DNA from: Streptomyces sp. Mut1
GTDB taxonomy: Bacteria; Actinomycetota; Actinomycetes; Streptomycetales; Streptomycetaceae
Length of the DNA stretch: 64,000 nt
NCBI RefSeq assembly: GCF_030719295.1
Contig: NZ_CP120997.1
Location: 62,001 to 126,000, forward strand
Reading direction: 5' to 3'
Shown piece after piece: positions 3,077-17,505 of the stretch. The notes under the pieces are model-generated. The model was given only the letters and a program-made list of their open reading frames with translations. It was not told the origin of the DNA and did not search any database. The translations under genes and the position numbers were made by a program. Each line of letters begins with the position of its first letter. Position 1 is the first letter of the stretch.

Positions 3077-4072
3077 TCAGTGGATGACGCCCGAAGCGGT
3101 GAGGCAGCTGCGGCCCGCCGCCGCCATGCGGGCCTGGAACGGGCGCAGGGCCGGCAGGCCCGGTACCGGGGGGAGGGTCTTGAGCCAGGTGAACCAGCCC
3201 GTGAAGGCGGCGAGCAGCACCGCGGCGGCATCGTGCTCGTCCTTGCGCAGCAGCCCGGAACCGGCGGACAGGACGTCCTCGGGGCGGCAGCCGCCCGCTT
3301 CCACGGCGCCCAGCAGCAGGTAGACGAGGTCGAAGACGGTGGCGCCCCGGCAGGCGTAGGCCCAGTCGACCAGCACCACACTCCCCTCGGAGCTTCCCGT
3401 GACGGCGGAGGGCCGGTCCTCGGCCTCCGTCAGCAGCACGTTGTCGGCCCGGAGGTCCGCGTGCAGCAGGCCGTGGCCTCTCGCGGCGTCCTCCCAGCTC
3501 TCCTCCAGGCGGATCAGGCGGTCGAGGTGGCGGCGCAGCCACGGGTCCTCGGCCACGAAGCCGGGTGTGCCGGTGGGGCGGTGCGTTCCGGCGACGGCCT
3601 CCGCCGCGGCCAGACTGCGCCAGCCCGTCAGCTCTTCGCGGAACAGCTCGTCCACGCCGGGCAGCGGGGAGTCCGGGTCCGGGGCGGTCAGGCCGCGTAC
3701 GGTGTCGAGCACCGCCAGCAGGTGTGCGCGCTTCCACGGCAGCGGCGGAACAGCGCCGTGGACGGGGGCGAAGGCCAGCACCGACCAGTCCTCGTAGTCG
3801 AAGGACCACATGAGGGTGGGTGCGGGCAGGCCCTGGGGAAGGCCGGCGTGGAGTGCGGCTTCGCGCCGGTAGAGCTCCGGGCTGTAGCTGTTCTGTTCGG
3901 CGGACACCGCCTTGACGAAGGCCGAGCGCCCGTCCGCGCCGGTGAGCACCGAGGCCATGCCGGGCGAGAACCCGCCGACGGCCGGTGCCTCGTGCACGAT
4001 CTCGGACCCTATCCGCCCGGCCACGCGCCTGCGGATCGCGTCGGGAAGGCTGTCCCACACCAGGCGGGTCAT
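3077..4072 (-). CDS. Aminoglycoside phosphotransferase-fold small-molecule kinase
   Basis: The 331-aa sequence has the APH/choline-kinase fold. The catalytic loop is 'HGLLHADLRADNVLL' (HxDxxxxN) and the metal-binding Asp sits in 'SVVLVDWAYACRG'. The N-lobe carries 'AFVKAVSAEQ' with the ATP-site Lys. Members phosphorylate hydroxyl groups of antibiotics or metabolites with ATP. The gene is the last of a minus-strand run that starts at 10306; its ATG overlaps the stop of the epimerase gene (ATGA), so the two are translationally coupled. In this setting it may phosphorylate an intermediate or inactivate the product inside the cell; the sequence does not decide between tailoring and self-protection. 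Confidence 0.75.
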   Translation of the reverse strand: MTRLVWDSLPDAIRRRVAGRIGSEIVHEAPAVGGFSPGMASVLTGADGRSAFVKAVSAEQNSYSPELYRREAALHAGLPQGLPAPTLMWSFDYEDWSVLAFAPVHGAVPPLPWKRAHLLAVLDTVRGLTAPDPDSPLPGVDELFREELTGWRSLAAAEAVAGTHRPTGTPGFVAEDPWLRRHLDRLIRLEESWEDAARGHGLLHADLRADNVLLTEAEDRPSAVTGSSEGSVVLVDWAYACRGATVFDLVYLLLGAVEAGGCRPEDVLSAGSGLLRKDEHDAAAVLLAAFTGWFTWLKTLPPVPGLPALRPFQARMAAAGRSCLTASGVIH

Positions 4073-5136
4073 CGCGTCCCTCCCGTACCGGTCGCCGCTC
4101 CCGTGCGGGCGCTTTCCAGCAGGATTCGTTCCGTCGTCATGTCGATCTCTCCGCCGCCGAGGAACTGCTCCGGGTCCGGCGCCGCCTCGTCCAGCCAGTC
4201 GGCGACCGAGCCCACGGTCTCGTCCAGGGACCGCTTCGCCGCGGGGCGTTCGCCGGCGGGCACCCGGGAGAACCAGGCCGTGCCGGTGCCGGTGGGCGCC
4301 CACATCGGCAGGCCGGTGTGGGGCGCCACCCCGGCGGCGACGAGGCTGTCCTCGGGCACCCAGACGGGCCGGCCGGGCCCGCGGCGGGCGCACGCCCGCG
4401 CGAGTGCGCCCCAGGTGCTCTGCGGCCCGACCGCGTTGAACACCCCGGTCGTGCCGTCCTCCACCAGGTCCGTCGTCCACTCCGCGAGGTCCCGCACGTC
4501 CAGCACCTGGAACGGGTCGTCCGGCGTTCCCGGGAGCGCGACGTCGCCGCCCCGCGTGAAACGCCAGGGCCAGTAGGGGAAGCGGCCCGCGAAGCGGTCG
4601 TAGTGCAGATGTGTGGGCGAGGGACGGGCCGGGTTCCCGTAGCGGCGTCTGCTGGACACGTCGTGCGGACCGGCCACCAGGCCCGGCCGCACCACCAGGC
4701 TGCGTCCGCTCCCCCGCGCGGCGGTGAGGGCCGCCTCGCACCCCGCCTTGAGCTCCCCGTACGAGGCCCCGTCCAGAAGGCCGGTCCGCCGGGCGGGCAC
4801 CGTGGGGGCGGTCACGGGTGTGGGGGCGCCGAAATCCCGGTACACGGAGATCGTGGAGATCAACGCATAGACGCCGCAGTCCAGTTCCCGGGCGCTGCGC
4901 TCGACCTGGGCGGGCTGGTAGGCGCAGGTGTCGACGACCGTGTCCCACCGGGTGGAGCGCACCGCGTCGAAGCCGTCGGCCCGGTCGCCGCGCAGCCAGG
5001 TCACGCCGGGCGGCAGGGGGCCGGTGCTGAGGCCCCGGTTCAGTACGGTGACCCGGTGTCCGCGCCTCACCGCCTCCTGGACGAGGTGGCGGCCGATGAA
5101 GACACCGCCGCCGATGACGAGAATGGCCATGCCCAT
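4069..5136 (-). CDS. NAD-dependent epimerase/dehydratase (extended SDR)
   Basis: This 355-aa protein begins with a dinucleotide-binding Rossmann motif 'VIGGGVFIGRHLVQEAVRRGHRVTVLNRG' and has the catalytic Tyr-Lys pair in 'SYGELKAG'; 'STISVY' supplies the Ser. It resembles the reductase-like SDR proteins found in Streptomyces clusters rather than classical UDP-sugar epimerases. The substrate is unknown. Its ATG overlaps the stop codon of the radical SAM gene (TGATG) and its own stop overlaps the kinase start, so three genes are made as one coupled unit. A second in-frame ATG six bases further in is the alternative start. Confidence 0.75.
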   Translation of the reverse strand: MGMAILVIGGGVFIGRHLVQEAVRRGHRVTVLNRGLSTGPLPPGVTWLRGDRADGFDAVRSTRWDTVVDTCAYQPAQVERSARELDCGVYALISTISVYRDFGAPTPVTAPTVPARRTGLLDGASYGELKAGCEAALTAARGSGRSLVVRPGLVAGPHDVSSRRRYGNPARPSPTHLHYDRFAGRFPYWPWRFTRGGDVALPGTPDDPFQVLDVRDLAEWTTDLVEDGTTGVFNAVGPQSTWGALARACARRGPGRPVWVPEDSLVAAGVAPHTGLPMWAPTGTGTAWFSRVPAGERPAAKRSLDETVGSVADWLDEAAPDPEQFLGGGEIDMTTERILLESARTGAATGTGGTR

Positions 5137-6785
5137 CAGACCCGGGCCTCCAGCAGGGAACGGCCCCGGAGCACGCCCTCGGGGTAGAGGTGGACGCCGT
5201 AGCGCGCCAGGCGGGAGAGGTTCTCCCTGATCGCCGCCGCGCCTCCCGCGGGGTCCGGGTGGTCGACGGGAGCCATGCCGATGCGCTCCACGCTCTTCTC
5301 GATGGCCAGGTTCTCCGGCGTGCCCAGGTGGGGTACCAGCCAGTGTTCGAAGTCGGCCTGCCACAGCATGAGTACGGCACCGTCGTTCTTCCGGCGGACG
5401 TCCGTCAGCGTGCGGTGGTTCAGGCTCCTCGCCTCGTGTACGTCCATGCCGATGTGCGACCAGGAGTAGTCGGGGTCGTGTGGGTCGTGGACCTCGATCC
5501 GGAGCCGTTCGCGGTCCTGCCACAGCGGCATCGTCTCGTCCGAGATGCTGAACACGCTGAGCATGAAGTGGCCCCGGTACTCCTCGGTGAGGAACGCGTG
5601 GGTCTGGGCGTAGTCGTCGGGGGTCTCCCCCGGGTATCCCGCCATGAAGGAGCAGCGGTAGCCGAGTCCGCCGGAGCTGAGGAGGCGGAAGGCCTGGAGG
5701 TTCTGCTTCCGGTTGACCTTCTTGTCCATGTGCTTCAGGGTGTTGTCGCTCATCGACTCGAAGCCGAGCGACAGGAAGCGGCAGTGTGCGGCGGCGAGCT
5801 GGTCGACGAGTTCGGGGGTCTTGATGACGTTGGCCCTGCTGTAGCCCTCCCACTCGACGCCGAGCCCCGGCAGCAGTCTCAGCAGTTCCCGCAGCCGGGT
5901 GGGCGGCACGGTGAAGGTGGAGTCCATGGCCTTGATGAAGCCGGCCCCGCACTGTTCGGCGTAGGCCGCCCAGTCGTCGTGGATCTTCTGTGCGGACTTG
6001 TAGCGCCACTTGGGGCTGGCGGCGGGGAACGAGCAGAACTTGCAGGTGAAGGGGCAGCCCCGCATGGACTCGTACGGGATGACGGGGAACCGTCCGCGCG
6101 GCATCGGTGAGGGGTGCGCGTCCAGGTCGATGTACTCGAACCCGGTGGCGTACCAGCCGGGGCGGCCCGGTTCCGCGCCGCGGATGCCGGGGTCGGGGCG
6201 CAGGACCAGGTTGGGGATGCCGTCCAGGGGTGCGCGGGCGGCCAGTGCGTGGAGCAGGGCCGGCAGGGCCTCCTCCGAGTCGCCGCGCACGATGATGTCG
6301 ACCGTGGGGAAGTCCCGCATCACGGAGGCGTACTTGAGGTTGCTGTACTGGCCGCCGAGGAGGAGCGGTACGCCGGGGAAGTGGCGTCCGATCCAGCCGA
6401 CGGCGGTCCGCAGCGCGGCGTTGTTCCAGATGTAGCTGGTGGAGAGCAGGACGGCCTCGTAGTCGCCTCCCGGCGGCTGGGGGTCGTCCTGGTCCCACAG
6501 GTTGAGGGTGTCGAAGTGGTCGTAGTCGGCGCCGGCCTGTTCCAGGATGCGTTCGAGGGTGAAGGTGGTCAGATGCGGCACGGTGGTCCGCCGGGGGCGG
6601 AGCAGCGGGTAGTCCACGCCGCCGTGGCGGAATCCCAGGCGGCTGAGCCGGAGGCCGGCGAGTTCGGTGCCGCGGAGGTAGTCCGCGGCGTTCGCGTCGC
6701 CGTTCTCCCGGTCGAGCAGGGTGCCGTTCAGGTAGGTGGAGTTCTTGAAGGTGGGCCCGAGTCCGGCCACCAGAAGTACCCGCAT
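5136..6785 (-). CDS. B12-binding domain radical SAM protein (first of two)
   Basis: The 549-aa protein has an N-terminal cobalamin-binding-type region (about residues 1-190, with 'LSTSYIWNN' and 'PLLLGGQYSNLKY') and a radical SAM domain whose [4Fe-4S] ligands are in 'RGCPFTCKFCSFP' (CxxxCxxC). 'ADIIVRGDSEEAL'-type sequence and 'GFESMSDNTLKHMDKK' are typical of class B enzymes, and 'FMAGYPGETPDDY' is the usual beta-6 region. Such enzymes methylate unactivated carbons or rearrange substrates using SAM and cobalamin. The start at 6785 is favoured because GGAGGA sits 6 nt upstream; an ATG two codons earlier abuts that site. It shares little beyond fold with the second radical SAM protein at 15718. 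Confidence 0.85.
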   Translation of the reverse strand: MRVLLVAGLGPTFKNSTYLNGTLLDRENGDANAADYLRGTELAGLRLSRLGFRHGGVDYPLLRPRRTTVPHLTTFTLERILEQAGADYDHFDTLNLWDQDDPQPPGGDYEAVLLSTSYIWNNAALRTAVGWIGRHFPGVPLLLGGQYSNLKYASVMRDFPTVDIIVRGDSEEALPALLHALAARAPLDGIPNLVLRPDPGIRGAEPGRPGWYATGFEYIDLDAHPSPMPRGRFPVIPYESMRGCPFTCKFCSFPAASPKWRYKSAQKIHDDWAAYAEQCGAGFIKAMDSTFTVPPTRLRELLRLLPGLGVEWEGYSRANVIKTPELVDQLAAAHCRFLSLGFESMSDNTLKHMDKKVNRKQNLQAFRLLSSGGLGYRCSFMAGYPGETPDDYAQTHAFLTEEYRGHFMLSVFSISDETMPLWQDRERLRIEVHDPHDPDYSWSHIGMDVHEARSLNHRTLTDVRRKNDGAVLMLWQADFEHWLVPHLGTPENLAIEKSVERIGMAPVDHPDPAGGAAAIRENLSRLARYGVHLYPEGVLRGRSLLEARV

Positions 6786-6807: not shown

Positions 6808-7848
6808 TCACGGGTTGACCTGTTGTCCGTTGATGCGCAGGAGCAGCGGGAGGTCGCGGATGTCGTCGTGGCGCAGTGCCCAGAGCAGGAACCGTTCGAC
6901 TCCGAGGCCGAAGCCGGAGGTGCGCAGGGGGCGCAGTTCCCGCATCCGCAGGTACCAGGCGTACTCGGACTCCTCGACCTGGTGGAGGCGCAGGGCCTCG
7001 CGCACGGCGTCGGCGGTGGCGTGGCGTTCGCCGCAGCCGACGGTCTCACCGATGCCGAAGAGGAGGTCGCCGTTGCGTGCCGCGCCGGGGTCGTCCTGAG
7101 CGGTCGCCTGGTAGAAGGGGACGGAGAGCAGGTCGTGGTGGGTGACCCAGGTGAACTCGCCGAGCCGGGCCATGATCTCGCGTTCGCCCGCGTGGGTGAG
7201 ACATCGGCTGCCGGGTGCCACCTCGGTCACGTACCTCGGGTCGTCCCCGAGGAGCTTGACGGCGTCACGGAAGGTGAGGGAGGTGAAGACGTCGTCCTCG
7301 GCCAGGGCGGTGAGGTGGCCGGTGCCGCCCGCGGCGTCGCGGACGGTGTCGGGGCAGTGCTCGAGGAGCGCGCGGGCCAGGTGGCGCAGGTAGTCCTGGA
7401 CCACGGTCTTGACGTCGTCCAGGTCGCCGACGATCTCGGCCTCGCTGTGGAAGAACTGGCAGAGGTGGCGTTCGTCCATCGCTTCGCCGCGGAACGAGGG
7501 CATCACGTAGTAGCAGCCGCCCTCGGCGAGGCGGCAGCCGTACTCCAGCAGGAACTGCATGGAGTCGGCCAGGTAGGTGGGGACGCCCTCGACGGAGACC
7601 TTGACGGGGCTGGAGTCGCTGCCGAGGCCCATGGGGCTGGAGACGGATCCGGTGGTGATCGGGAGGTACATCGCGCGCACGCCGCGCTGCCGCCAGAAGT
7701 CGACGGTCGCGAAGTGGAAGACGTCGGTCAGTTCGACGACGGCGCGGTACCAGGGGTGTTTCAGTACCTCTTCGAAGTGTGTGTCCGGGATCCGCCATGA
7801 GTGCGGGGGTGACACGGCCAGCTGGGACGACGCGATCGTCTCGGTCAC
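6808..7848 (-). CDS. Stand-alone class II aaRS core (AsnRS/AspRS-like), probable amide synthetase
   Basis: The 346-aa product resembles the catalytic half of asparaginyl/aspartyl-tRNA synthetases with no N-terminal OB-fold anticodon-binding domain. Seen are 'SVEGVPTYLADSMQFLLEYGCRLAEGGCYYVMPSFRGEAMDERHLCQFFHSEAEI' (the QLYLE...FRAE..HL.EF..EAE stretch of AsnRS, here altered) and motif 3 in 'GFGLGVERFLLWAL' with Arg319. Homologues lacking the tRNA domain include archaeal-type asparagine synthetases that amidate aspartate through an adenylate (established family knowledge). By inference this enzyme activates a carboxylate as an adenylate and joins it to an amine or ammonia. Its GTG start overlaps the stop of the HTTM gene (GTGA), and the radical SAM gene follows 22 bp after its stop. 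Confidence 0.75.
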   Translation of the reverse strand: MTETIASSQLAVSPPHSWRIPDTHFEEVLKHPWYRAVVELTDVFHFATVDFWRQRGVRAMYLPITTGSVSSPMGLGSDSSPVKVSVEGVPTYLADSMQFLLEYGCRLAEGGCYYVMPSFRGEAMDERHLCQFFHSEAEIVGDLDDVKTVVQDYLRHLARALLEHCPDTVRDAAGGTGHLTALAEDDVFTSLTFRDAVKLLGDDPRYVTEVAPGSRCLTHAGEREIMARLGEFTWVTHHDLLSVPFYQATAQDDPGAARNGDLLFGIGETVGCGERHATADAVREALRLHQVEESEYAWYLRMRELRPLRTSGFGLGVERFLLWALRHDDIRDLPLLLRINGQQVNP

Positions 7849-8762
7849 GAGAGTCTCCCGGATCGGTGCGGAGTGCCGGACAGCCGGCGGCGGAACCCCT
7901 TCAGCGCGGCGCCGATCCTCTGCTCCGTTTCGGCGGGCAGCACGAAGAGGGGCAGGGCGAACCAGGCGAAGTGCCAGAAGGAGATGTTCATGGTGGCTTT
8001 GATCGAGGTGTGGAAGCCGAGCGACAGCAGGCCGAAGACCTGCTTGTGCCGCCAGCCGGCCAGGAGGCCGGGCAGGAAGGCCAGTTCGAAGCCGACGGCG
8101 GCGGTGCCGGCGGCGGCCAGCAGCCGCAGGTCCTGCCGGCTGAGGCGTTTGCCGAGCGGGGTCCCCAGCTCGGCGAGGCTGCCGCGCAGCGTGCGCCCGT
8201 CCATCCATTTCACTCCGGTGACGCGCAGCTTGGAGATGCCTGACTGGAGGTAGACCAGGGCGTAGTAGGACTGCATGGCGGCGAGCGCGGCGGAGGCCAG
8301 CCGGTCCGGTGGGGTGCGTCCGTGGGTGGCGTCGGGTCCGGCCGCCTCGGCTTCCACCAGGCAGAGCAGCAGGAGGAAGGTGTTCAGGTGTGAGGTGTAG
8401 CTGTACAGGTCCTGGTGCATGGCCACCTGGTGCCTCTGCAGGGCGAGGAAGCTCAGGTTGGCCGTGATCTTGACTTCGGGGCGGTCGTTGCCCAGGGCCC
8501 AGGCGGCGGCGGACACGAGGGCCACGCCGCGTACCGCTTCGTACTGGGCGGGGCTCAGCTGGAAGCCGGAGGGCTCCTGTCCGGCGCTTTCGAGGAGTTC
8601 CCGCTGCTCCGCGACGACCGTGCCGGACGGCATGTGCCAGACGGTGCGCAGGATCGCGGCGCCGGTGGTGTACCGGGCCAGCCGGAGCCGCTGTACGGCG
8701 TCGGGCTGGTCCCGCCAGATCCTGCTGAATCCGCCGGTGATGGTCTCGGTGATGCTGGTCAT
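7845..8762 (-). CDS. HTTM-domain (vitamin K gamma-carboxylase-like) membrane protein
   Basis: This 305-aa protein has several hydrophobic helices: around 'LSYAALVYLQSGISKL'-type sequence in the middle, 'LLAAAGTAAVGFELAFLPGLLAGW', and 'FWHFAWFALPLFVLPAE' near the end. The segment 'QSYYALVYLQSGISKLRVTGVKWMDG' matches the HTTM family, the horizontally transferred transmembrane domain related to vitamin K-dependent gamma-glutamyl carboxylase. In bacteria the chemistry is largely unknown. It is coupled to the aaRS-like gene downstream by a GTGA overlap and follows the methyltransferase gene after 11 bp. The HTTM-associated protein of this operon (9611) is its probable partner. Confidence 0.75.
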   Translation of the reverse strand: MTSITETITGGFSRIWRDQPDAVQRLRLARYTTGAAILRTVWHMPSGTVVAEQRELLESAGQEPSGFQLSPAQYEAVRGVALVSAAAWALGNDRPEVKITANLSFLALQRHQVAMHQDLYSYTSHLNTFLLLLCLVEAEAAGPDATHGRTPPDRLASAALAAMQSYYALVYLQSGISKLRVTGVKWMDGRTLRGSLAELGTPLGKRLSRQDLRLLAAAGTAAVGFELAFLPGLLAGWRHKQVFGLLSLGFHTSIKATMNISFWHFAWFALPLFVLPAETEQRIGAALKGFRRRLSGTPHRSGRLS

Positions 8763-8773
8763 GGTCGCGGGCC

Positions 8774-9580
8774 TCACACGAACAGGGCGGGTTCGCTGTC
8801 CGCGCGCAGCCGCCGGTAGGCGTAGTTGGTGCAGCGCAGGTACTTCATGTTCTCGTTGAAGGTGCGGAAGATGTGCAGCAGCCGGGTGTACAGCGCTTCC
8901 TGTGCCTCTTCGGACCAGTCGGCGGCGCGTGATCCGGTCATGCGGCGGGCGTAGGCCTCGACGTCGGCGTCGTCGACGCTCCCCGCCTCGGTGTCCTCCC
9001 GCCAGTACGGCTGGAGCAGGTCGGTGCGGTAGAGGTCGGTCCAGTATTCGCGGCTGTACTGCGGCACCGGCACCTCGATGATCTCCGAGACCCGGTCCAG
9101 CAGCCCGGCGGGCGGTTCCTGGGCGTAGTACAGCTGCGTGTCGCCGATGAGGCCGAACTGTTTGGTGACCCGGATCATCTCGGCGACGGCCTGGTCGTGG
9201 CCGCGTACGAAGGCGAGGGCTCCGCCGGAGAACACCACGTCGAAGGTTTCGTCGGCGAAGGTGAGCCGGCGCATGTCCTGGCACTCGTGGCTGACCAGAT
9301 CGTGCAGGTCCTCCTCCTTGGCCCGCAGCCGGGCCGCTTCCGCCATCGCCGGGGAGATGTCCACCCCGACGACCTCGACGCCGGTGCGGCGTGCCATCTC
9401 ACGGCTGAGGAAGCCGGCGTTGCAGCCGGCGTGCAGGGCGCGGAGCCCGGGTCTCAGGTGCAGGTTCTGCGCGAGGGTGCGTACGGTCGCCAGACCGCCC
9501 GGTGGCAGGTTGGACTCGCCGAGCATCGCGAGGAGCTCCACGTACGGGGTCTGCCGAACCCGTTCGGCGGTCGGGGTCAT
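8774..9580 (-). CDS. SAM-dependent class I methyltransferase
   Basis: The 268-aa protein has the Rossmann-type methyltransferase core: motif I 'ALHAGCNAGFLSREMA' (the usual DxGxGxG is altered to HAGCNAG), the acidic motif in 'VEVVGVDISPAM', then 'HECQDMRRLTFADETFDVVFSGGALAFVRG' for motifs post-I and II. It lacks obvious extra domains apart from a C-terminal helical region rich in Arg/Tyr. The ATG is preceded by AGGAGG at good spacing, so this start is firm. It probably O-, N- or C-methylates a pathway intermediate; the altered motif I leaves some doubt about catalytic competence. Confidence 0.8.
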   Translation of the reverse strand: MTPTAERVRQTPYVELLAMLGESNLPPGGLATVRTLAQNLHLRPGLRALHAGCNAGFLSREMARRTGVEVVGVDISPAMAEAARLRAKEEDLHDLVSHECQDMRRLTFADETFDVVFSGGALAFVRGHDQAVAEMIRVTKQFGLIGDTQLYYAQEPPAGLLDRVSEIIEVPVPQYSREYWTDLYRTDLLQPYWREDTEAGSVDDADVEAYARRMTGSRAADWSEEAQEALYTRLLHIFRTFNENMKYLRCTNYAYRRLRADSEPALFV

Positions 9581-9610
9581 CGGGTGCCTCCTGCGGCGCG
9601 GGTTGCAAGG

Positions 9611-10306
9611 TCAGGGACGGGGGTGGCCGGAGGCGGCCGGGGTGGCGGCGGGTTCGAGGAGCCGCCACAGGTCCTGGTCTCCGGCTCGGGCGAACGCGCC
9701 CTCTGGGTCGTACCGGTGCATCAGCTCGACGCTCGTCACCTGGGACCGGTCGGTGGGGTCGCAGCGGGTGAAGTCGACTTCCACCAGGTGGAGTTCGACG
9801 CCCACGAAGCGCTGGCCCGCCGGGGGCCGGAAGGAACCGCGGATCTCGTCCCAGTCACGCCACGGTCGCGTGTTGAGGCGGTGCAGTGCCTTGCGGCAGA
9901 AGTCGTCCCGGACGTGTGGGTCCTCGCAGGTGATGAAGACGCGCTCGATGACGGAGATGACGCGGAAGAACTCGAGGGGGAGCAGTGCCCAGGGGTCGGC
10001 CGGGCCGACCAGGTGGCCGCGGTCCGTGATCAGCACCACCCGGGCCTGCTGGAAGCAGTCCGTCAGGTAGTAGTTGAACATGTTGTACGCGCAGAACGGC
10101 CAGGCATTGCGGTCCTTGAAGGTCTGCCGGATCTGAACACCCAGATATGCGGCACTCACCGCCACGAGAGCGGTCCAGGCACCCCTCTGCGAGACCGTTT
10201 TCCTGACCAATTCGGCACAACTCCTCGAACTCGCACGAAAACCGGCCGGGCGGCGGGAAGACGGGACGGGTCTTCCGGTGAGAACGGTGATAAATGAATC
10301 CGGCAT
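9611..10306 (-). CDS. HTTM-associated small membrane-anchored protein, function unknown
   Basis: The product (up to 231 aa) has one clear N-terminal transmembrane helix, 'GAWTALVAVSAAYLGVQI', followed by a soluble domain with 'FKDRNAWPFCAYNMFNYY', 'FFRVISVIERVF' and 'QVTSVELMHRYDPEGAF'. Proteins of this form are found beside HTTM genes in actinobacteria, and here an HTTM gene lies two genes downstream, so a complex in the membrane is likely. The true start is uncertain: the ATG at 10306 has no ribosome-binding site, whereas a TTG at 10210 is preceded by GAGGAG. It is the first gene of the minus-strand arm that runs to 3077. Confidence 0.55.
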   Translation of the reverse strand: MPDSFITVLTGRPVPSSRRPAGFRASSRSCAELVRKTVSQRGAWTALVAVSAAYLGVQIRQTFKDRNAWPFCAYNMFNYYLTDCFQQARVVLITDRGHLVGPADPWALLPLEFFRVISVIERVFITCEDPHVRDDFCRKALHRLNTRPWRDWDEIRGSFRPPAGQRFVGVELHLVEVDFTRCDPTDRSQVTSVELMHRYDPEGAFARAGDQDLWRLLEPAATPAASGHPRP

Positions 10307-10545
10307 TCGCGGTGAACGCCGTTGCGCCGATTATGCCGAGCGCGTCACGAGCCGGTCCAGGCATGCCGAGTGCGCCGGTACGCCACGTCCGGACGACGCC
10401 ACGCACCCGGGGCAGTCCACATTCCGAGACGCCTTTGAGCTCTTCCTCTCCCGCGGTGAACAGCCCTACGCTGCACGCGCGAACAGCGCGGTACGCCCGA
10501 CCGTTTCGCCTGAATTACGTGCGACAACCTGCCGGGGGATGACTC
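10307..10545. promoter_or_regulatory. Divergent intergenic region between cluster arm 1 and the AlaRS-like gene
   Basis: This 239-bp gap lies between two genes that point away from each other, so it should contain two promoters. I saw no convincing palindrome and no heptamer repeat like that at 34646. The end nearest the plus-strand gene carries its ribosome-binding stretch GGGGGA. Confidence 0.4.
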
Positions 10546-11670
10546 ATGGAATATTCCGTACGGAACGCGGAAACAGGCACCGAGTGCTTCACCGCGAATT
10601 TTCTGGAAGTGCTGACGAGAAGGGGGCTTCGGCTCACTCCTCCGTGCCCCGTTTCGGCCGGCGACCGGACCGTCAGCTTTGTCAATGCCACGCTCACGCC
10701 GTTCAAGGACGCCCTCGGGGCCGGGGAGGATCTGGGTTCCCTGTGCCATGTCCAGCCGTGTGTGCGCGCCCACGGCCACGAGCCGTGGCTCTACACCTTC
10801 GACATGGTCGGCGCGCTCGGTGACGACGCCGACCGTGCGGCGGTGATCGGGCACACGGTCGAGGCGCTGCTCGCGGCCGCGCCGTGGATAGCCCCGGAGG
10901 AACTGGCGGCCCTCGCCGACCCCGCCGACACCGGTCTTCACCGGTTGCTGCGGGACGCCGGGGTCCGGCTGTGGGAGGTTTCGGACCGGCCCGATCTGAC
11001 GTGCTGGCAGTACGGTGACGGCTATCCGCTGGAGGGGCGTGGCTGCACCCTGGTGGCGCCGGTGCGGGGCCGGCCGCGCTGCTCCGCGGAGTGCGGGCCG
11101 GGCTGCGACTGCGGGCGTGTGCAGGAGATCGGCAACATCATCCTGGTCAGGGGTGCCCGGCGGTCCTATGTGGAGACCGCGTTCGGGGTCGAGTCGGTAC
11201 GTGCTCTCGCGCACGGCGGTGATCTGTACGCGCTGCCCGAGCTGGCCCGGGAGTGTGCGCGGCTGGTGGCCCTCGGGTATTCCGACGCCCGTGCGCGCCA
11301 GGTCGTCAACCTGCGGCGGGTGCTGGAGCGGCTGCACCGGGACGGTGCCCGGCCGTCGGGCCGCGGGCCGGGGCATGTCATGCGGGACATGGTCAAGAGC
11401 GCCTTCGACCTGGTCACCGGGGGCGGGGGCGACTGGGGCGCGGGCGTGGAGCGCTGTTCGCTCGGTCCGGTGGTCACCGGACTGCTCCGGGACGAGGGGC
11501 TGCGGCGGGAGACCTCGCGTGAGCGGTCGGTGCGGTCGGCCGCGCGCCTGGTGCGGCGTCGCGCCGGGAGCGGGCGGCCGGTCGGCCGGGACGAACTGCG
11601 GGGGACGTTCGGGCTCAGCGCCGAGGACGCGCAGGAGGTGCTGGCGGCCGCCTCACCGGCGGCGGAGTGA
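10546..11670 (+). CDS. Degenerate alanyl-tRNA synthetase catalytic-core paralogue
   Basis: The 374-aa protein aligns by eye with the N-terminal catalytic and following helical part of AlaRS and stops where the editing domain would begin. 'VNATLTPFKDALGAGEDLG' matches 'VNSGMAPLKRYFTGAE' of the full AlaRS encoded next door; 'HVQPCVRAHGHEPWLYTFDMVG' matches 'NIQSCIRT...LTFFEMMG'; 'VQEIGNIILVRGA' matches 'YIEIWNAGVFMQFD'; 'GRGPGHVMRDMVKSAF' matches 'NEGAGYIPRRLIRKSM'. The class II motif 3 sequence GLERI is GVESV here, so the ATP-contacting Arg is lost, and a Cys-rich insert (CSAECGPGCDCG) replaces the usual GPCGPC segment. It probably no longer makes alanyl-adenylate as AlaRS does; tRNA or aminoacyl binding is a possible role. 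A good GGGGGA site precedes the ATG. Confidence 0.75.
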   Translation: MEYSVRNAETGTECFTANFLEVLTRRGLRLTPPCPVSAGDRTVSFVNATLTPFKDALGAGEDLGSLCHVQPCVRAHGHEPWLYTFDMVGALGDDADRAAVIGHTVEALLAAAPWIAPEELAALADPADTGLHRLLRDAGVRLWEVSDRPDLTCWQYGDGYPLEGRGCTLVAPVRGRPRCSAECGPGCDCGRVQEIGNIILVRGARRSYVETAFGVESVRALAHGGDLYALPELARECARLVALGYSDARARQVVNLRRVLERLHRDGARPSGRGPGHVMRDMVKSAFDLVTGGGGDWGAGVERCSLGPVVTGLLRDEGLRRETSRERSVRSAARLVRRRAGSGRPVGRDELRGTFGLSAEDAQEVLAAASPAAE

Positions 11671-11674
11671 GCCG

Positions 11675-11707
11675 CCGGCCGGCCCGGGATGTCGCCGGGC
11701 CGGCCGG
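11675..11707. terminator. Perfect 13-bp hairpin between converging AlaRS-like and AlaRS genes
   Basis: The arms CCGGCCGGCCCGG and CCGGGCCGGCCGG are exact complements around a 7-nt loop. The position just past both stop codons makes it a bidirectional terminator. Confidence 0.8.
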
Positions 11708-11721
11708 ATTACGGGCACGGT

Positions 11722-14304
11722 TCAGCCGAGCAGCTCCAGGAAGCGGCGGTTCAGGGCGTCGCCGTCGGCGCCGGAGACCGCGCCCTGGGCGATGCGGTCG
11801 TTGCCGCCGCCGTTGCCGCCGAACCCCGCGAGCAGTTCCTTCAGCAGCTTCGACGCGCTGCGGCCGCTGTCACCGGGCACGGCGAGCACCACGTTGAGCC
11901 GGGTCTCCCCGCCGTATCCCAGGGTCGCCCGGCTCTCCTGCTCCGTCACCCGCTGTACGGCTGTGCGCAGGCCGGCGACGTCCTGGGGGCCGGACACGAC
12001 GGCCGCCTTCACCCCGCTGCCCGACTCGCTGCGCGTCACTTCGGCGTGTGCGTCTCCCCCGCCCCGGACCTTCTTCGCTGCGGCCTGCTTCACCACACGC
12101 TCGGCCGCGGTGACGACCTCGGCGGGGCTGCTGTGCAGGAGGCGGGCCACGGCGGCCAGTTCGGTGCCCTGGCTCAGCGAGTAGCGCGCGGCTTCCCCGC
12201 GGGTGACGGCGGTGATGCGGCGTACGCCCGAGGCGACGCTCTGTTCGGCGGTGATGCGGAACGAGCCGATGAAGGACGTGTGCGGGACGTGGGTTCCGCC
12301 GCACAGCTCCTTCGAGGCGTCGCCGAAGCTCACCACCCGGACCTCGTCGGCGTAGGTCTCGCCGTCCAGGGAGAGGGCTCCGGCGCTCTTCGCGGTCTCG
12401 GGGCTGGTGACCTCGACGCGCCGTTCCTCGTCGCGCAGGATCCACTCGCCGACCAGAGCCTCGACGGCGGCGAGTTCCTGGGCGGTCATCGGCTTGGGGT
12501 GGGTGAAGTCGAAGCGCAGCCGCCGGGGGTCGACCAGCGATCCCGCCTGGCGCACATGGTCGCCCAGGACGGTCCGCAGCGCGGCGTTGAGGAGGTGGGT
12601 GCCGCTGTGGTTGGCCATGGTGTCGCGACGGCTCTCCCGGTCCACCTCCAGGCGCAGCGAGGCGCCGGCGCGCAGCTCGCCCGTGCTGACCCTGACCCGG
12701 TGCAGGTGGTGTCCGCTGCTGTGCCGGACGGTGTCGAGGATCTCGCCGCGCAGTCCGTCGTCGCCGGTGAGGACGCCGTGGTCGCCGACCTGCCCGCCGC
12801 CCTCGGCGTAGAAGGGGCTGCGGTCCACGATGAGGTCGGCCTCGCCGCCCTCGCCGACCGCTTCGGCCAGGGCTCCTTCCTCGAAGAGGCCCACGACCCG
12901 TGCTTCGGCCTCCGTCCGCTCGTAGCCGACGAACTCGGTGACGGGCACGCCGGACAGGGAGGCCGGCAGCACGTCGTCCACGCGGAGGCGGCGGTCGGTG
13001 CGTTCGCCGCCGCGGCTGAGCCTCTGGTGGCGCTCGTACTCGGCCGCGTACTCCTCCATGGAGACGGCGGCGCCGCGCTCGGCGACGAGGTCGCGGGTGA
13101 TCTCCACGGGCAGGCCGTAGGTCGAGAAGAGGCGGAAGGCGTCGGCGCCGGAGACCGTGCCGCCGCTCTCGATGAGCGTGGAGACGCGGTCCAGTCCGCG
13201 TCGGACCGCTGTGCCGAACTCCCGGCACTCGGCGTCGAGCGCCGCCAGGACGGCGTCCTTGCGGCCGAGGAGGCCCGGGTGGTGGTCCTTGAGGGTGTCC
13301 ACGATGGTGTCGGCCAGCGGCTGGAACTGGAAGCTGTCCGCGCCCTGGCGCAGGGCGACCGTCATGGATTTGCGGATGAGCCGGCGGGGGATGTAGCCGG
13401 CGCCCTCGTTGCTGGGCAGCACGCCGTCGGCGAGGATCTTGACCGCGGCGCGCATGTGGTCGGCGATGACGAGATGGCGGGTCTCGGGGGTGCCGGACTC
13501 GCCGAGGATCTCCTGCGCGACGTTCACCACGGGGCTGAGCAGGTCGGACTGGTAGACGCTGTCCAGGCCGTTGAGTGCCAGGCAGATGCGTTCCAGGCCG
13601 GAGCCGGTGTCGACGCTGGTGAAGGGCAGCGGACGGATCGTTCCGTCGAGGCCCTTGTCGAACTGCATGAAGACGCCGGCGTTCCAGATCTCGATGTAGC
13701 GGCGCGTGGTGTCGAACTCTCCGCCGGGTACGTAGGCCGGGCCGTAGGCGTCACCGGTGTCGAGGAAGACCTCGGTGCAGGGTCCGCAGGGGCCGGAACT
13801 GCCGGCGGGGCCCCAGAAGTTGTCCGCGGCGGGCTGCGGCACGATGCGGTCGCGGGACATTCCGACCCGTTCCCAGGCGCGGGCGGACTCCTCGTCGGCG
13901 GGGAGTCCCAGTTCCTTGTCGCCCTCGAACACCGTGACGTAGAGCTGCTCCGGCTTGAGCCCGAACCCCTCGGTCAGCAGGGCGAAGGCAAGCTCCACCG
14001 CGCGTTCCTTGAAGTAGTTCCCGATCGACCAGCTGCCCATCATCTCGAAGAAGGTGAGGTGGTGGCGGTCCCCCACGTCGTCGATGTCCTTGGTGCGGAT
14101 GCAGGACTGGATGTTGCAGAGGTCTTTGGCCGGCGGTGTCTCCGCACCCGTGAAATACCGCTTGAGCGGCGCCATGCCCGAGTTGACGTACAGGAGCGTG
14201 GGGTCGTTCCGGGGCCGGACCGAGGCCCCGTCGATGCGGAGATGTCCATTGCGTTCGAAGAACGACAGGAAGGTCTCACGGATGGACTCGCTGGAGACGT
14301 GCAT
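11722..14304 (-). CDS. alaS: Full-length alanyl-tRNA synthetase, cluster-borne second type
   Basis: The 860-aa protein has the complete AlaRS layout: class II core with 'RTKDIDDVG...LTFFEMMG' (motif 2) and 'SVDTGSGLERI' (motif 3), tRNA-recognition helices, an editing domain with the zinc-type motifs 'HSGTHLLNAAL' and 'CGGTHVPHTSFIG', and a C-Ala domain with a Gly-rich 'GFGGNGGGNDRIAQG' end. It charges tRNA-Ala with alanine. Its core differs from the usual Streptomyces housekeeping enzyme (for example 'LYVNSGMAPLKRYF' rather than a 'FVNAGMVQFKPYF'-like sequence), and it lies among biosynthetic genes, so it is probably an extra copy: an inhibitor-resistant target or a supplier of Ala-tRNA/Ala-adenylate. 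GAGGA precedes the ATG; 97 bp separate it from the decarboxylase gene, so it may have its own promoter. Confidence 0.9.
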   Translation of the reverse strand: MHVSSESIRETFLSFFERNGHLRIDGASVRPRNDPTLLYVNSGMAPLKRYFTGAETPPAKDLCNIQSCIRTKDIDDVGDRHHLTFFEMMGSWSIGNYFKERAVELAFALLTEGFGLKPEQLYVTVFEGDKELGLPADEESARAWERVGMSRDRIVPQPAADNFWGPAGSSGPCGPCTEVFLDTGDAYGPAYVPGGEFDTTRRYIEIWNAGVFMQFDKGLDGTIRPLPFTSVDTGSGLERICLALNGLDSVYQSDLLSPVVNVAQEILGESGTPETRHLVIADHMRAAVKILADGVLPSNEGAGYIPRRLIRKSMTVALRQGADSFQFQPLADTIVDTLKDHHPGLLGRKDAVLAALDAECREFGTAVRRGLDRVSTLIESGGTVSGADAFRLFSTYGLPVEITRDLVAERGAAVSMEEYAAEYERHQRLSRGGERTDRRLRVDDVLPASLSGVPVTEFVGYERTEAEARVVGLFEEGALAEAVGEGGEADLIVDRSPFYAEGGGQVGDHGVLTGDDGLRGEILDTVRHSSGHHLHRVRVSTGELRAGASLRLEVDRESRRDTMANHSGTHLLNAALRTVLGDHVRQAGSLVDPRRLRFDFTHPKPMTAQELAAVEALVGEWILRDEERRVEVTSPETAKSAGALSLDGETYADEVRVVSFGDASKELCGGTHVPHTSFIGSFRITAEQSVASGVRRITAVTRGEAARYSLSQGTELAAVARLLHSSPAEVVTAAERVVKQAAAKKVRGGGDAHAEVTRSESGSGVKAAVVSGPQDVAGLRTAVQRVTEQESRATLGYGGETRLNVVLAVPGDSGRSASKLLKELLAGFGGNGGGNDRIAQGAVSGADGDALNRRFLELLG

Positions 14305-14401: not shown

Positions 14402-15721
14402 TTAACTCAGGGGCGCTGCCGGTGTTTTGGGGCGGAGTGCGCTGTATCCGTAAAGATGGGTGAAGGCCCGGCGGTAGCTGTCCGCGTCGGTCAGTGTGCG
14501 GTCGGCTCCGTGGTCCAGGGACACCACCCGGGGCAGCTCAGGGCCCCAGATGTGGCTGAGGGCGACGGTGTAGGCGCCTGCGTTGAGGACGGCGAGCGTG
14601 TCGGCGCCGGCGGGCAGGGCCGCGTGGGCGTCGATCACCGCGGGGGCGCAGGTCCGGTCGGCGATCCGGGCCGGCGTCCGGTCGCCGTCCGCGCCGTGCA
14701 CGGGGATCACGGGAAAGCGCGCGCCCGGCACCGGGATCAGGGAGTTGGTGCCCAGATCGGTGATCAGCCAGTCCGCTCCGGTGCGCGCTTTCCTCGCGAC
14801 GACGCGGGTCAGGCCGACGGCGGCGTCGGCCGCGACGTACCGGCCGGGTTCGAGGTAGACGGTCACCGGGTAGGGCAGCGCGGCGAGGGCGGCCGCGGCC
14901 TCCACGGCGAAGTCGTCGGCGGTGACCCCCCGCGCGGCGAGGAGGAGCCTGCTCTCGAATCCGCCGCCGATGTCCAGGACCGGGAACCTGATGCCGGTGT
15001 CCCGCCGCGTCCTGGCCAGGCAGTCGGCCACGTTGCGCAGGTGGGCGCCGAACACCGCCGGGGAGACGCAGTGGCTGAGCTGGTGGGCGAGCAGCCCGGT
15101 GACCCGGAGCGCGGGATCGGCTTCGACCCGGGCCAGGGCGCGTGTGAACTGGCCGTCCTGCCAGGTGAATCCGAGTTTGGTGTCGTCGTCGAGCATGCCT
15201 GGGCCGGTGGCCGGCAGGGAGACGCGCAGGCCCACGGAGACCGCGGTCCCGGACGCGCGGGCGGCCCGGGAGACGGTTTCGATGTCCTCGAAGGAGTCGA
15301 GGGTGAACAGGGCGGGTTCCTGGTCGACCGCGCGCTTCGCGAAGGCCTGGGTGTGGCCGAACCCGTTGACCAGCAGGTCGGCTTCGCGTACGCCCATCGC
15401 CTGCGCGATGTCCAGTTCCAGGGGGCTCATCACCTCCAGGCCGGCGCCGGCCTCCAGGACCGCGGACACCACGGGTTCCAGGTAGCAGGACTTGAGCGCG
15501 AAGTAGGTGCGCACCCTCGGCAGCCGCCGGGCGAAGGCGTCGGTGATCTCCCGGACGTTGGCGCGGACCCGCGCGGGGAGCACGACGAGTGCCGGGGTGC
15601 CCAGCCGGCCGGCGAGCCGGTCGGCCCGCTCCCCCTCGATCATGAGGCAGCCGTCGGTTGCGCGGTCCAGTGAGGCGCTGAGGCCGGTCCAGTCCGGTTC
15701 CGCGTGTTTCGGCGCGGTCAC
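14402..15721 (-). CDS. Fold-III PLP-dependent decarboxylase (ornithine/diaminopimelate decarboxylase family)
   Basis: This 439-aa enzyme has the alanine-racemase-like barrel and C-terminal domain of group IV decarboxylases. The PLP lysine is in 'RTYFALKSCYLEP', the Gly-rich phosphate loop in 'PVLDIGGGFES', the phosphate-binding 'YLEPGRYVAAD' follows, and the C-terminal 'LAVLNAGAYTVALSHIWG' contributes to the second active site. The usual C-D-S-x-D segment is altered to 'RTCAPAVID', so the substrate may differ from ornithine or DAP. It likely decarboxylates a D- or L-amino acid to an amine building block. GTG start overlaps the radical SAM stop (GTGA), showing translational coupling. Confidence 0.8.
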   Translation of the reverse strand: MTAPKHAEPDWTGLSASLDRATDGCLMIEGERADRLAGRLGTPALVVLPARVRANVREITDAFARRLPRVRTYFALKSCYLEPVVSAVLEAGAGLEVMSPLELDIAQAMGVREADLLVNGFGHTQAFAKRAVDQEPALFTLDSFEDIETVSRAARASGTAVSVGLRVSLPATGPGMLDDDTKLGFTWQDGQFTRALARVEADPALRVTGLLAHQLSHCVSPAVFGAHLRNVADCLARTRRDTGIRFPVLDIGGGFESRLLLAARGVTADDFAVEAAAALAALPYPVTVYLEPGRYVAADAAVGLTRVVARKARTGADWLITDLGTNSLIPVPGARFPVIPVHGADGDRTPARIADRTCAPAVIDAHAALPAGADTLAVLNAGAYTVALSHIWGPELPRVVSLDHGADRTLTDADSYRRAFTHLYGYSALRPKTPAAPLS

Positions 15722-17505
15722 GCGGGTCCCCCGGTGCGCATCTGGAAGGAGGGGGCGGCGACGGGGTCGGCCGGGGCGTCCCAGCCGGTGGCCAGCACGC
15801 GGGTGCGGGCCACCGAGCCGGCCGTGGCCAGTTCGTTGAACCGGGTCATCTCCTTGCGGGCCGACGCGAAGTCGCCGTTGGCGAGGCTGCGGTCGGTCTG
15901 GGCGAAGGTGCGGTTCAGCTGGCGCATGAAGGGGGCGAGTTCGTCGGTGAATCCGATGTTGCGCTGGTGTCCGCGCGTTCCGCCGCAGACCCGGTCGAGT
16001 TCGGCGCGGAAGCGGACGTTCTGGCAGTAGATCTCGCTGTAGGTGCGGCCGTTGAGCAGTACCGAGCCGTTCAGCGCCGAGGAGCCGAGCATCGGGGGCA
16101 GGACCTTGTTCTCGGTCTCCTCCAGACCGTACTGGCTGATCCGCAGGAACTCCTGCCGGTCCAGCCAGGTGACGTGCTGGTCGTCCATCCACGGGGTGCG
16201 GGGCTGGAGGAGCGGGGGGTAGATCACGACGTGTCCGAGCCCGACCTGCTGGACGAACTCCACCGTGTTGCGGGTCGAGTCCTCGTCCTCGCCGAGCGAG
16301 GGGTAGATCAGGCTCATGATGTAGCCGATCCGGTTCTCGTTGAGGAACTCGCAGATCTCCTTGGTCTTCTCCATGTTGCGGCGCTTGTCGTACGTCCCGA
16401 TGAGCAGGTCCTGGTCGGCCGTCTCGATGCCCACCCACAGGAGGGGGATGTGCGCCGAGCGCAGGACGTCGGCCTTGTGGACCCGGAAGTCGCGCAGCGA
16501 CTGGAAGAAGTTGACCGCCAGGTCGAGCCCTCGGTCCTGCATGCCCTGGTACAGGCGGCTGGCGTGCAGGTACGGCGTGTTGGAGCCGGAGCCGGCGAAG
16601 TTGACGAAGCCGTGGTCGCGGTTGAGCGCGGCCAGCTCCTCCAGCACGCTGTCCACGGGGCGCAGCCTGAGCCCGCCGCTCTTGAGCGGGTGCGCGCAGA
16701 AGCCGCAGGCGAACTGGCAGCCCCTGCTGTCCTCGAAGCCGATGGTCAGCATCTTCGAGGCCGGGGCGTGTACCGCGGGGTACACGTCGGAGCCGTACAG
16801 CGGTGTGTGGGAGTCCGTCCGGAAGGTGAGGCTCTCGCGGCGGGCGGTGGCCTCGACGCGTCCGTCGCGGCGGTGGAAGAGGTTGGGTACCTCGCCGAGT
16901 TCCGTCAGCCGGCCGGCCACCCAGTCCGCGTATCCGACGAGGGCCGTTTCGCCGTCCCCCGCGGCGGCCGCGTCGAGCGCGGCGATGTCGGTGAGCACGC
17001 TGCCTTCGAAGTAGTCCACGTGGCCGCCGCCGGCGATGATCCTGACCTCGGGACATCGGGCCCGGACCGACTCCAGAATCGCCCGTACGTCCCTGAGGGC
17101 GGGCTGGGACCACAGTTTGACGGCGAGCATGCGCACGTCGCGGCGCTGGATCTCCAGAACCAGTTCGTCGGCGATCTCCAGGGCAACCCTGCGGTTGAGG
17201 AGGTCGACGTCGGCGTCGAGGGCGAGGGCCTGTTCCACGGTCCTGGGGTCCGGGGCGCCCGCGTCGAGGATCTCGGCGCGGACCCGGTCGCGCATCTCGC
17301 GGACCCGGACGAAGAGGGCGGGGTCGTGGAGGCGTTCCGCGGTGTCCATGGTCACGTAGTCGCGGATGACCGGGCGGTGCCCGGCGGCGCGGAGACAGGC
17401 GGCGAGGTAGGCCAGGCCGTTGTCCGCCAGGAAGTAGCTGGTGTAGTCGGGGTAGCCGGTGTAGTTGAAGAGCAGGACGTCGACGCCCGCTGCCGGGTGG
17501 ACCAC
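15718..17505 (-). CDS. B12-binding domain radical SAM protein (second of two)
   Basis: The 595-aa protein starts with a region typical of cobalamin-binding radical SAM enzymes ('VLLFNYTGYPDYTSYFLADNGLAYLAACLRAAGH', later 'PEVRIIAGGGHVDYFEG' and 'GDGETALVGYADW') and has the cluster motif 'SRGCQFACGFCAH' (CxxxCxxC). 'LLWVGIETADQDLLIGTYDK' and 'SLIYPSLGEDEDSTRNTVEF' are the later barrel strands. A C-terminal extension of about 120 residues with 'CGGTRGHQRNIGFTDELAPFMRQLNRTF' has no recognised function. Together with the decarboxylase and P450 genes it forms one coupled unit. It probably performs a radical C-methylation or skeletal change. Confidence 0.85.
   Translation of the reverse strand: MVHPAAGVDVLLFNYTGYPDYTSYFLADNGLAYLAACLRAAGHRPVIRDYVTMDTAERLHDPALFVRVREMRDRVRAEILDAGAPDPRTVEQALALDADVDLLNRRVALEIADELVLEIQRRDVRMLAVKLWSQPALRDVRAILESVRARCPEVRIIAGGGHVDYFEGSVLTDIAALDAAAAGDGETALVGYADWVAGRLTELGEVPNLFHRRDGRVEATARRESLTFRTDSHTPLYGSDVYPAVHAPASKMLTIGFEDSRGCQFACGFCAHPLKSGGLRLRPVDSVLEELAALNRDHGFVNFAGSGSNTPYLHASRLYQGMQDRGLDLAVNFFQSLRDFRVHKADVLRSAHIPLLWVGIETADQDLLIGTYDKRRNMEKTKEICEFLNENRIGYIMSLIYPSLGEDEDSTRNTVEFVQQVGLGHVVIYPPLLQPRTPWMDDQHVTWLDRQEFLRISQYGLEETENKVLPPMLGSSALNGSVLLNGRTYSEIYCQNVRFRAELDRVCGGTRGHQRNIGFTDELAPFMRQLNRTFAQTDRSLANGDFASARKEMTRFNELATAGSVARTRVLATGWDAPADPVAAPSFQMRTGGPA

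Follow-up and report, generated by a model that had tools for sequence, protein, structure and literature searches.

A Streptomyces gene cluster with three aminoacyl-tRNA-synthetase-like proteins as a possible source of an alanyl-adenylate mimic with a P–N bond

We analyzed a 64,000-nucleotide stretch of DNA from Streptomyces sp. Mut1 (hereafter the window), which has a Streptomyces-like GC content of ~72% and corresponds to 62–126 kb of contig 1 in an 8.0-Mb genome of four contigs. Gene calling by codon bias, combined with Pfam and NCBIfam scans of 20 cluster proteins, delimits a cluster of ~20 genes at 3077–33334, in which three proteins related to aminoacyl-tRNA synthetases are encoded within 7.5 kb. 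These are a 346-residue AsnRS catalytic-core protein homologous to AgnA (6808–7848, minus strand), a 374-residue cut-down, degenerate AlaRS, here called AlaL, which is predicted to be an alanyl-tRNA-dependent transferase (10546–11670, plus strand), and a complete extra AlaRS of 860 residues, predicted to provide self-resistance, Ala-tRNA or both (11722–14304, minus strand; TIGR00344, 687.7 bits). The trio is real and lies where an earlier note on this DNA had placed it, and its two shorter members do not fall into unrelated folds, AlaL having an AlaRS fold and the 346-residue protein being a class II Asn-type core. Streptomyces sp. ATexAB-D23 (locus L027, a 21-kb stretch), which belongs to the same species as the window, carries twelve window genes at 95–100% protein identity. 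Published systems were compared through parts of PMC12945691, PMC12250964, PMC4307249, PMC4392301, PMC6429109 and PMC7916415.

The AsnRS core shares 43.4% identity with AgnA over 98% of the query, as against only 23–27% with housekeeping AsnRS in the same plasmid search. Pfam assigns it PF00152 and a class II match under the cut-off, and finds no anticodon domain. The portions of the literature consulted name AgnA as an agrocin 84 biosynthetic enzyme without stating its reaction. One scan of genome contigs yielded 95 confirmed AsnRS-like loci, of which we analyzed the best 80, each reaching at most 10 kb to either side of the AsnRS-like gene and often shortened by contig ends; L027 represents the window's own species. 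An alignment of 82 AsnRS-like members (the 80 loci, pAgK84 and one Pantoea plasmid) shows no variation (82/82) in the arginines of motifs 2 and 3, in Arg275 or in the Ser-x-Gln stretch, as would suit an active adenylating enzyme. Position 101 is Leu in all 82 members, Lys in E. coli AspRS and Gly in E. coli AsnRS. The earlier note had named asparagine synthetase-type amide making as a known role of such cores; for this protein it is the weaker reading, because four NCBIfam models of asparagine synthetase A (PRK06462 type) match but none over its cut-off (best 232.6 versus 322 bits), and because the family keeps S66 peptidases and extra aminoacyl-tRNA synthetases as neighbours.

The cluster AlaRS is an extra copy. 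The genome contains a separate housekeeping alaS (636 bits), so the cluster gene is not its only alaS; the cluster protein is 36–37% identical to the housekeeping copy and 43–45% identical to the AlaRS of locus L084.

AlaL lacks the editing domain of AlaRS, and its motif 3 is altered as the earlier note had described. Ser takes the place of the motif-3 Arg, and in addition the motif-2 loop is shorter. None of the nine AlaL-type sequences retains the motif-3 Arg, which 5/5 AlaRS keep, and seven of the nine have the shortened motif-2 loop. According to the sections of PMC12945691 drawn on, the ascamycin protein AcmF, a cut-down AlaRS-like protein without most of the ATP-binding residues, takes alanine from Ala-tRNA and passes it to a nucleoside sulfamate, AcmD is a more resistant AlaRS that charges tRNA for ascamycin, and the AcmF residues named are Arg93, Trp100, Phe104, Glu216, Gln219 and the essential Glu232. 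Their counterparts in AlaL are R74, W81, F85, E194, N197 and E210, five of the six being identical, and their spacing equals that of AcmF (7, 4 and 3, 13). The Trp81 site is His in 5/5 AlaRS, and among the nine AlaL-type sequences is Trp in six and another aromatic residue in three; the Glu210 site is Asp in 5/5 AlaRS, and among the nine is Glu in six, Asp in one and Gly in two. The possibility that AlaL is a shadow open reading frame is ruled out by conservation and dN/dS. The genome holds a third AlaRS-type gene, G000:C1:722998-724149 (L003), which encodes a 430-residue core without an editing domain, and similar cores occur in the genomes of L020, L022 and L027; with motifs 2 and 3 intact, this gene (C1:722998) was ruled out as AcmF-like.

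AlaL is rare. A search of 5.8 billion proteins, with the 7996 best candidates scored, returned four relatives, and a profile search returned five. One hit of the AlaL search, P0002, and the AsnRS-like P0006, both on contigs with a listed length of 42160, probably lie on one contig. Among 392 genomes of the genus, 12 gave a match and two a strong one, namely the genome itself and one marked as the same species; the other 10 comprise three AlaL-like frames (L006, L007 and L011), five matches in frames as long as that of an AlaRS, and L009 and L015, whose matches lack support. Among 394 genomes of the class, 237 gave a match, strong only in the genome itself and at most 40 bits elsewhere; most of the class-level matches listed lie in frames of ~900 residues, as in AlaRS, and the five next best in frames of 500–660 residues. 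AlaL-type frames were found in several Streptomyces and in one Elusimicrobia metagenome-assembled genome (MAG).

The cluster also encodes an MccF-like S66 peptidase (24025–25113, minus strand), which in the PDB is closer to an MccF-like protein (E 3e-41) than to LD-carboxypeptidases (best E 1.7e-15), with 34% identity to AgnC5 and 29% to MccF. It keeps the residues at MccF positions Ser118, Trp186, Glu243 and His311, which we take to be the catalytic triad and Trp186 in MccF numbering. In two other species, a single frame without interruption encodes both AlaL and S66, namely L017:18508-20796(+) in Streptomyces sp. TP-A0874 and L020:18431-20614(+) in S. alfalfae. The S66 part of both fusions keeps the triad-position residues and Trp186, and the frame is constrained (dN/dS 0.30 over the whole, 0.375 over the AlaL part). 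This fusion suggests that the S66 peptidase is biosynthetic and not merely protective, because making and destroying a product in one protein would be futile, while freeing an amine and then acylating it would not. As described in the parts of PMC12250964 drawn on, MccB builds the P–N bond of microcin C from the Asn nitrogen with two ATP, and MccF cuts aspartate off processed microcin C.

A class I S-adenosylmethionine (SAM)-dependent transferase is encoded at 8774–9580 (minus strand). Its best PDB match is MccD (5fcd, E 6.5e-17; next best, 5e-11), and it shares 25.9% identity with MccD and 32.6% with the methyltransferase adjoining agnA on pAgK84. The gene at 14402–15643 (minus strand) encodes a pyridoxal-phosphate-dependent decarboxylase of fold type III (LysA/ODC-like; PF02784, E 1e-26; PDB diaminopimelate decarboxylase, E 6e-20).

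The cluster combines features of several described systems. On pAgK84, agnA is followed by a methyltransferase gene and then by agnB2, annotated as a resistant LeuRS, and the neighbouring agnC genes include agnC5, annotated as MccF-like. The window shares with this agrocin 84 (agn) system the AsnRS core (43%), the methyltransferase by agnA (33%), an extra aminoacyl-tRNA synthetase and the MccF-like peptidase (34%), but the extra synthetase is LeuRS there and AlaRS here, and the window adds AlaL, non-ribosomal peptide synthetase (NRPS) genes, two radical SAM proteins, the decarboxylase and a LeuA-like enzyme; two other agn methyltransferases gave no full-length match to the window. With ascamycin (acmD/acmF of Streptomyces sp. 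80H647) it shares a full extra AlaRS, a cut-down AlaRS-like protein without ATP-binding residues, and Glu in place of the alanine-binding Asp, but AcmF has Gln219 where AlaL has Asn, and the window sets these genes in an AgnA/MccF context without a recognised sulfotransferase family. The microcin C system (mcc, pMccC7-H22) is matched by the MccF-like S66 peptidase (29%), the MccD-like transferase (26%) and a major facilitator superfamily (MFS) exporter, although BLAST does not match this exporter to MccC; the window differs in having an AsnRS core and NRPS genes, and a decarboxylase without a BLAST match to MccE. Pfam found no MccB/ThiF protein among the 20 scanned proteins and BLAST no match to MccB among the window genes below 34 kb. 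Phosmidosine, compared by chemistry only and from partial sources, is likewise a P–N nucleotide antibiotic from Streptomyces. Thus, the statement of the earlier note that no described system resembles the trio does not hold, since agrocin 84 and ascamycin between them contain counterparts of all three proteins, although not in one cluster. We regard the window as a new assembly of known parts, an agrocin-type cluster with an ascamycin-type alanine module, within a wide family whose members swap aminoacyl-tRNA synthetase genes; the combination and the breadth of the family are new.

The company of the AsnRS-like gene recurs across the 80 loci. An S66 peptidase is present in 61, a member of one of two methyltransferase families in 61, and an MccD homologue (E 1e-6) in 40. 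A protein family recognised from its L044 member as beta-aspartyl dipeptidase is common to four of the 19 loci without S66 (L041, L044 at 11001–14121, L046 and L067), an association with S66 absence that has a hypergeometric P of 0.0025, although the four loci may be related; in L044 the dipeptidase gene overlaps the AsnRS-like gene. A PurD-type ligase is common to L041, L044 and L067, and L044 also encodes a 300-residue ThrRS-like core. A RelA/SpoT family, identified in L060, occurs in seven of the 80 loci (L031, L042, L043, L046, L048, L060 and L062). MccB-like (ThiF) proteins were seen in L074, L077 and L082, and proteins like the C-terminal acetyltransferase of MccE in L024, L025 and L077. 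We found no description of this wide AsnRS-like family in the open-access literature, which is a weak negative.

Furthermore, 40 of the 80 loci contain an aminoacyl-tRNA-synthetase-type open reading frame of a type other than Asn, Asp or Lys, where random windows of equal length from E. coli K-12 lead one to expect 5.6. Even at a density tripled to allow for small genomes, the enrichment has P ~7e-9, with the reservation that the loci are not independent. The types are Pro (9), Met (8), Leu (5), His (5), Gly (4), Cys (3), Glu (3), Ala (2), Phe (2) and Thr (2), some loci having two. All five genomes with LeuRS loci encode two LeuRS over the family cut-off, and more than one copy was seen in several of the genomes examined for ProRS (10) and MetRS (8), without a clean count. 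A synthetase accompanied by a divergent relative of the same type was found for Ala in the window and in L084 (the Elusimicrobia MAG), for Pro in L033, L055 and L086, for Met in L082 and for Phe in L026. MetRS-like proteins without HIGH and KMSKS are encoded at L074:5012-6697, L082:476-1981 and L096:13788-15479, from Vibrio, Photobacterium and an acidobacterial MAG. The ProRS-like proteins of L033, L055, L069, L086, L092 and L094 lack the motif-2 Glu and keep the motif-3 Arg, and the GlyRS pairs of L031, L042 and L064 have apparently intact motifs, with 61–66% identity to the L031 reference copy. Loss of the motif-3 Arg is therefore not general among second copies; judged from these motifs, loss of ATP chemistry in them is common but not universal. 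A CysRS-like gene with an altered KMSKS also lies near the AsnRS-like gene in L089 (Streptomyces alanosinicus), L091 (a Streptomycetaceae MAG) and L093 (S. scabiei).

The remaining genes of the cluster are on the minus strand except for a LuxR-type regulator at 21106–22125 (plus strand; weak HTH and GerE matches). The probable left edge is marked by an APH-fold kinase-like protein (3077–4072; PF01636, E 2e-5), homologues of which lie near AsnRS-like genes in L017, L020 and L029, and next to it lies an NAD-dependent epimerase-like protein (4069–5136; PF01370, E 2e-6). rSAM1 (5136–6785) is a radical SAM protein (PF04055, E 5e-18) with a weak B12-binding match (PF02310, under the cut-off); its best NCBIfam match is the PhpK family, at 144.6 bits against a cut-off of 600, and relatives with 64–66% identity adjoin the AsnRS-like gene in L017 and L020. 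A probable membrane protein (7845–8762), HTTM-like by eye and without a Pfam match, has a small conserved partner (9611–10306; start uncertain, the gene caller choosing 10210). The two occur together in the actinomycete loci L018, L019, L021, L022 and L028 and in own-species L027, and also near the AlaL-like frames of L007 and L011. At higher coordinates than the decarboxylase gene are a B12-binding radical SAM protein (15718–17505; PF02310 and PF04055), a cytochrome P450 (17534–18706; PF00067, E 5e-15) and two large proteins of 711 residues (18703–20838) and 652 residues (22085–24043) with 24% identity to each other. Both were suspected CHAT proteins, and neither Pfam nor NCBIfam gave any family match for the two. 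The 652-residue protein is 46–47% identical to proteins of L018 and L019; because its model has a predicted local distance difference test score (pLDDT) of 52.7, its fold search carries no meaning. Both large proteins have conserved Cys columns, and relatives lie beside AsnRS-like genes in L018, L019, L021 and L058. The right part of the cluster encodes an NRPS with C-PCP domains (25110–26687; PF00668, PF00550), a 2-isopropylmalate synthase-like enzyme (LeuA; 26684–28468; NF002991, 731.8 bits, cut-off 455), an NRPS with PCP-C-A-PCP domains (28549–32052; two PF00550, PF00668 and PF00501) and the MFS exporter (32069–33334; PF07690, E 2e-29).

These features lead us to a tentative reading, which falls just short of probable: the cluster would make a nucleotide antibiotic of the Trojan-horse type, a compound that stably imitates alanyl-adenylate, contains an N-acyl phosphoramidate (P–N) bond and is aimed at AlaRS. 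An alanyl or alanine-like group would be joined to the nucleotide through the P–N bond, and further decoration would come from the P450, the radical SAM proteins, LeuA and the NRPS. The S66 fusion, the beta-aspartyl peptidase and the roles of MccF and MccB suggest that Asn goes in and Asp comes out, leaving a phosphoramidate to which an amino acid is added. In such a route, the AgnA-like AsnRS core would use ATP and the amide nitrogen of Asn to form an aspartyl-NH-P-nucleotide, in parallel to the action of the unrelated MccB on microcin C, and the MccF-like S66 peptidase would then strip the aspartate, giving a nucleoside phosphoramidate with a free NH2. This NH2 would next receive Ala from Ala-tRNA through AlaL, in the way that AcmF acts on a sulfamate, and the MccD-like transferase, perhaps with the decarboxylase, would decorate the phosphate. 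The cluster AlaRS would stay active in the producer and supply Ala-tRNA, the MFS protein would export the product, and the S66 peptidase may also detoxify it. The interpretation in the earlier note, namely adenylate or aminoacyl-tRNA chemistry beside an NRPS, an alanyl-adenylate-like product and an extra AlaRS as a possible resistant target, stands to this extent as the likeliest reading, while its claim of novelty for the trio does not.

Several points weigh against this proposal. Position 101 is Lys in four full-length Asn/Asp-type synthetases (L041, L044, L048 and L067), so that this position does not settle whether Asn or Asp is the substrate. The Arg, Phe and Glu194 of AlaL are equally those of ordinary AlaRS (5/5), which leaves as telling features Trp81, Glu210, the absence of the motif-3 Arg and the short distance between Arg and Trp; the key Glu is missing in the AlaL-type frames of L007 (Gly), L006 (Gly) and L084 (Asp), and AcmF Gln219 corresponds to Asn197, as in AlaRS and in 9/9 AlaL-type sequences. 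The likeness of AlaL to AcmF, being drawn from residue numbers given in a review, is a lead and no test of homology. S66 was not found in 19/80 loci within the stretches examined, the S66 gene of the window lies more than 12 kb from AlaL, and the locus stretches of L017 and L020 contain AlaL but no AlaRS. A fold III decarboxylase is present, but BLAST with a threshold of E 0.001 does not match it to MccE, and aminopropylation is therefore a guess. Finally, depending on what the NRPS, LeuA and the radical SAM proteins contribute, the acyl group could turn out to mimic alanine instead of being alanine.

MccF is published as an immunity enzyme in the parts of the literature drawn on, and the S66 peptidase may accordingly only protect. 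A route of this kind to the same class of product, which we consider unlikely though a serious competitor, would confine S66 to self-immunity and form the phosphoramidate without an aspartyl intermediate, with the AgnA-like enzyme joining a ready-made carboxamide to the nucleotide and the acyl group coming from AlaL or the NRPS. It draws on the protective roles published or annotated for MccF and AgnB2 and, again from partial sources, on the pentanamide-derived acyl group of agrocin 84. The AlaL–S66 fusions of L017 and L020 argue against it, as do the S66 genes in 61/80 loci and the fact that four of the remaining 19 contain the beta-aspartyl peptidase family. Far less probable is an ascamycin-like nucleoside sulfamate (S–N), with AlaL in the role of AcmF, AlaRS in that of AcmD and the AsnRS core put to another use, for example to provide asparagine for the NRPS; AlaL does match the published AcmF active site, but the Pfam scan of 20 cluster proteins recognised no family of sulfotransferase type, and the AsnRS core is an AgnA homologue that misses the asparagine synthetase A cut-offs and whose family accompanies MccF and MccD homologues. 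Marginally more improbable still is that AlaL is a non-catalytic AlaRS relic, a regulator or subunit comparable to HisZ, with AlaRS simply a resistant target and the acyl group from the NRPS, since the lost ATP-binding features of AlaL and its strand opposite to its neighbours are set against Trp81 and Glu210 at AcmF positions, the S66 fusion in two species and the occurrence of AlaL-type frames in an Elusimicrobia MAG as well as several Streptomyces.

The phosphoramidate proposal offers an order of enzymes and a candidate substrate, asparagine, for P–N bond formation, and makes AlaL a second candidate for the rare class of AlaRS-derived transferases. To our knowledge, AlaRS has been little used as an antibiotic target. 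Beyond the window, it is possible, although we rather doubt it, that a modular route to nucleotide antibiotics, spanning phyla, has the AsnRS-like protein as its hub; an aspartyl phosphoramidate would be made from asparagine and ATP, trimmed of its aspartate by S66 or beta-aspartyl peptidases and combined with swappable aminoacyl donors. If so, the donors would be degenerate proteins derived from AlaRS, MetRS, ProRS and ThrRS, or PurD-type ligases, and would attach the amino acid of choice, drawing on tRNA or ATP, while intact synthetases of the same type would often act as shields. For many uncharacterised clusters, the target could be guessed by rule from the extra aminoacyl-tRNA synthetase gene beside them, and if the hub reading is true, the identity of the neighbouring synthetase would tell the target of each uncharacterised antibiotic.

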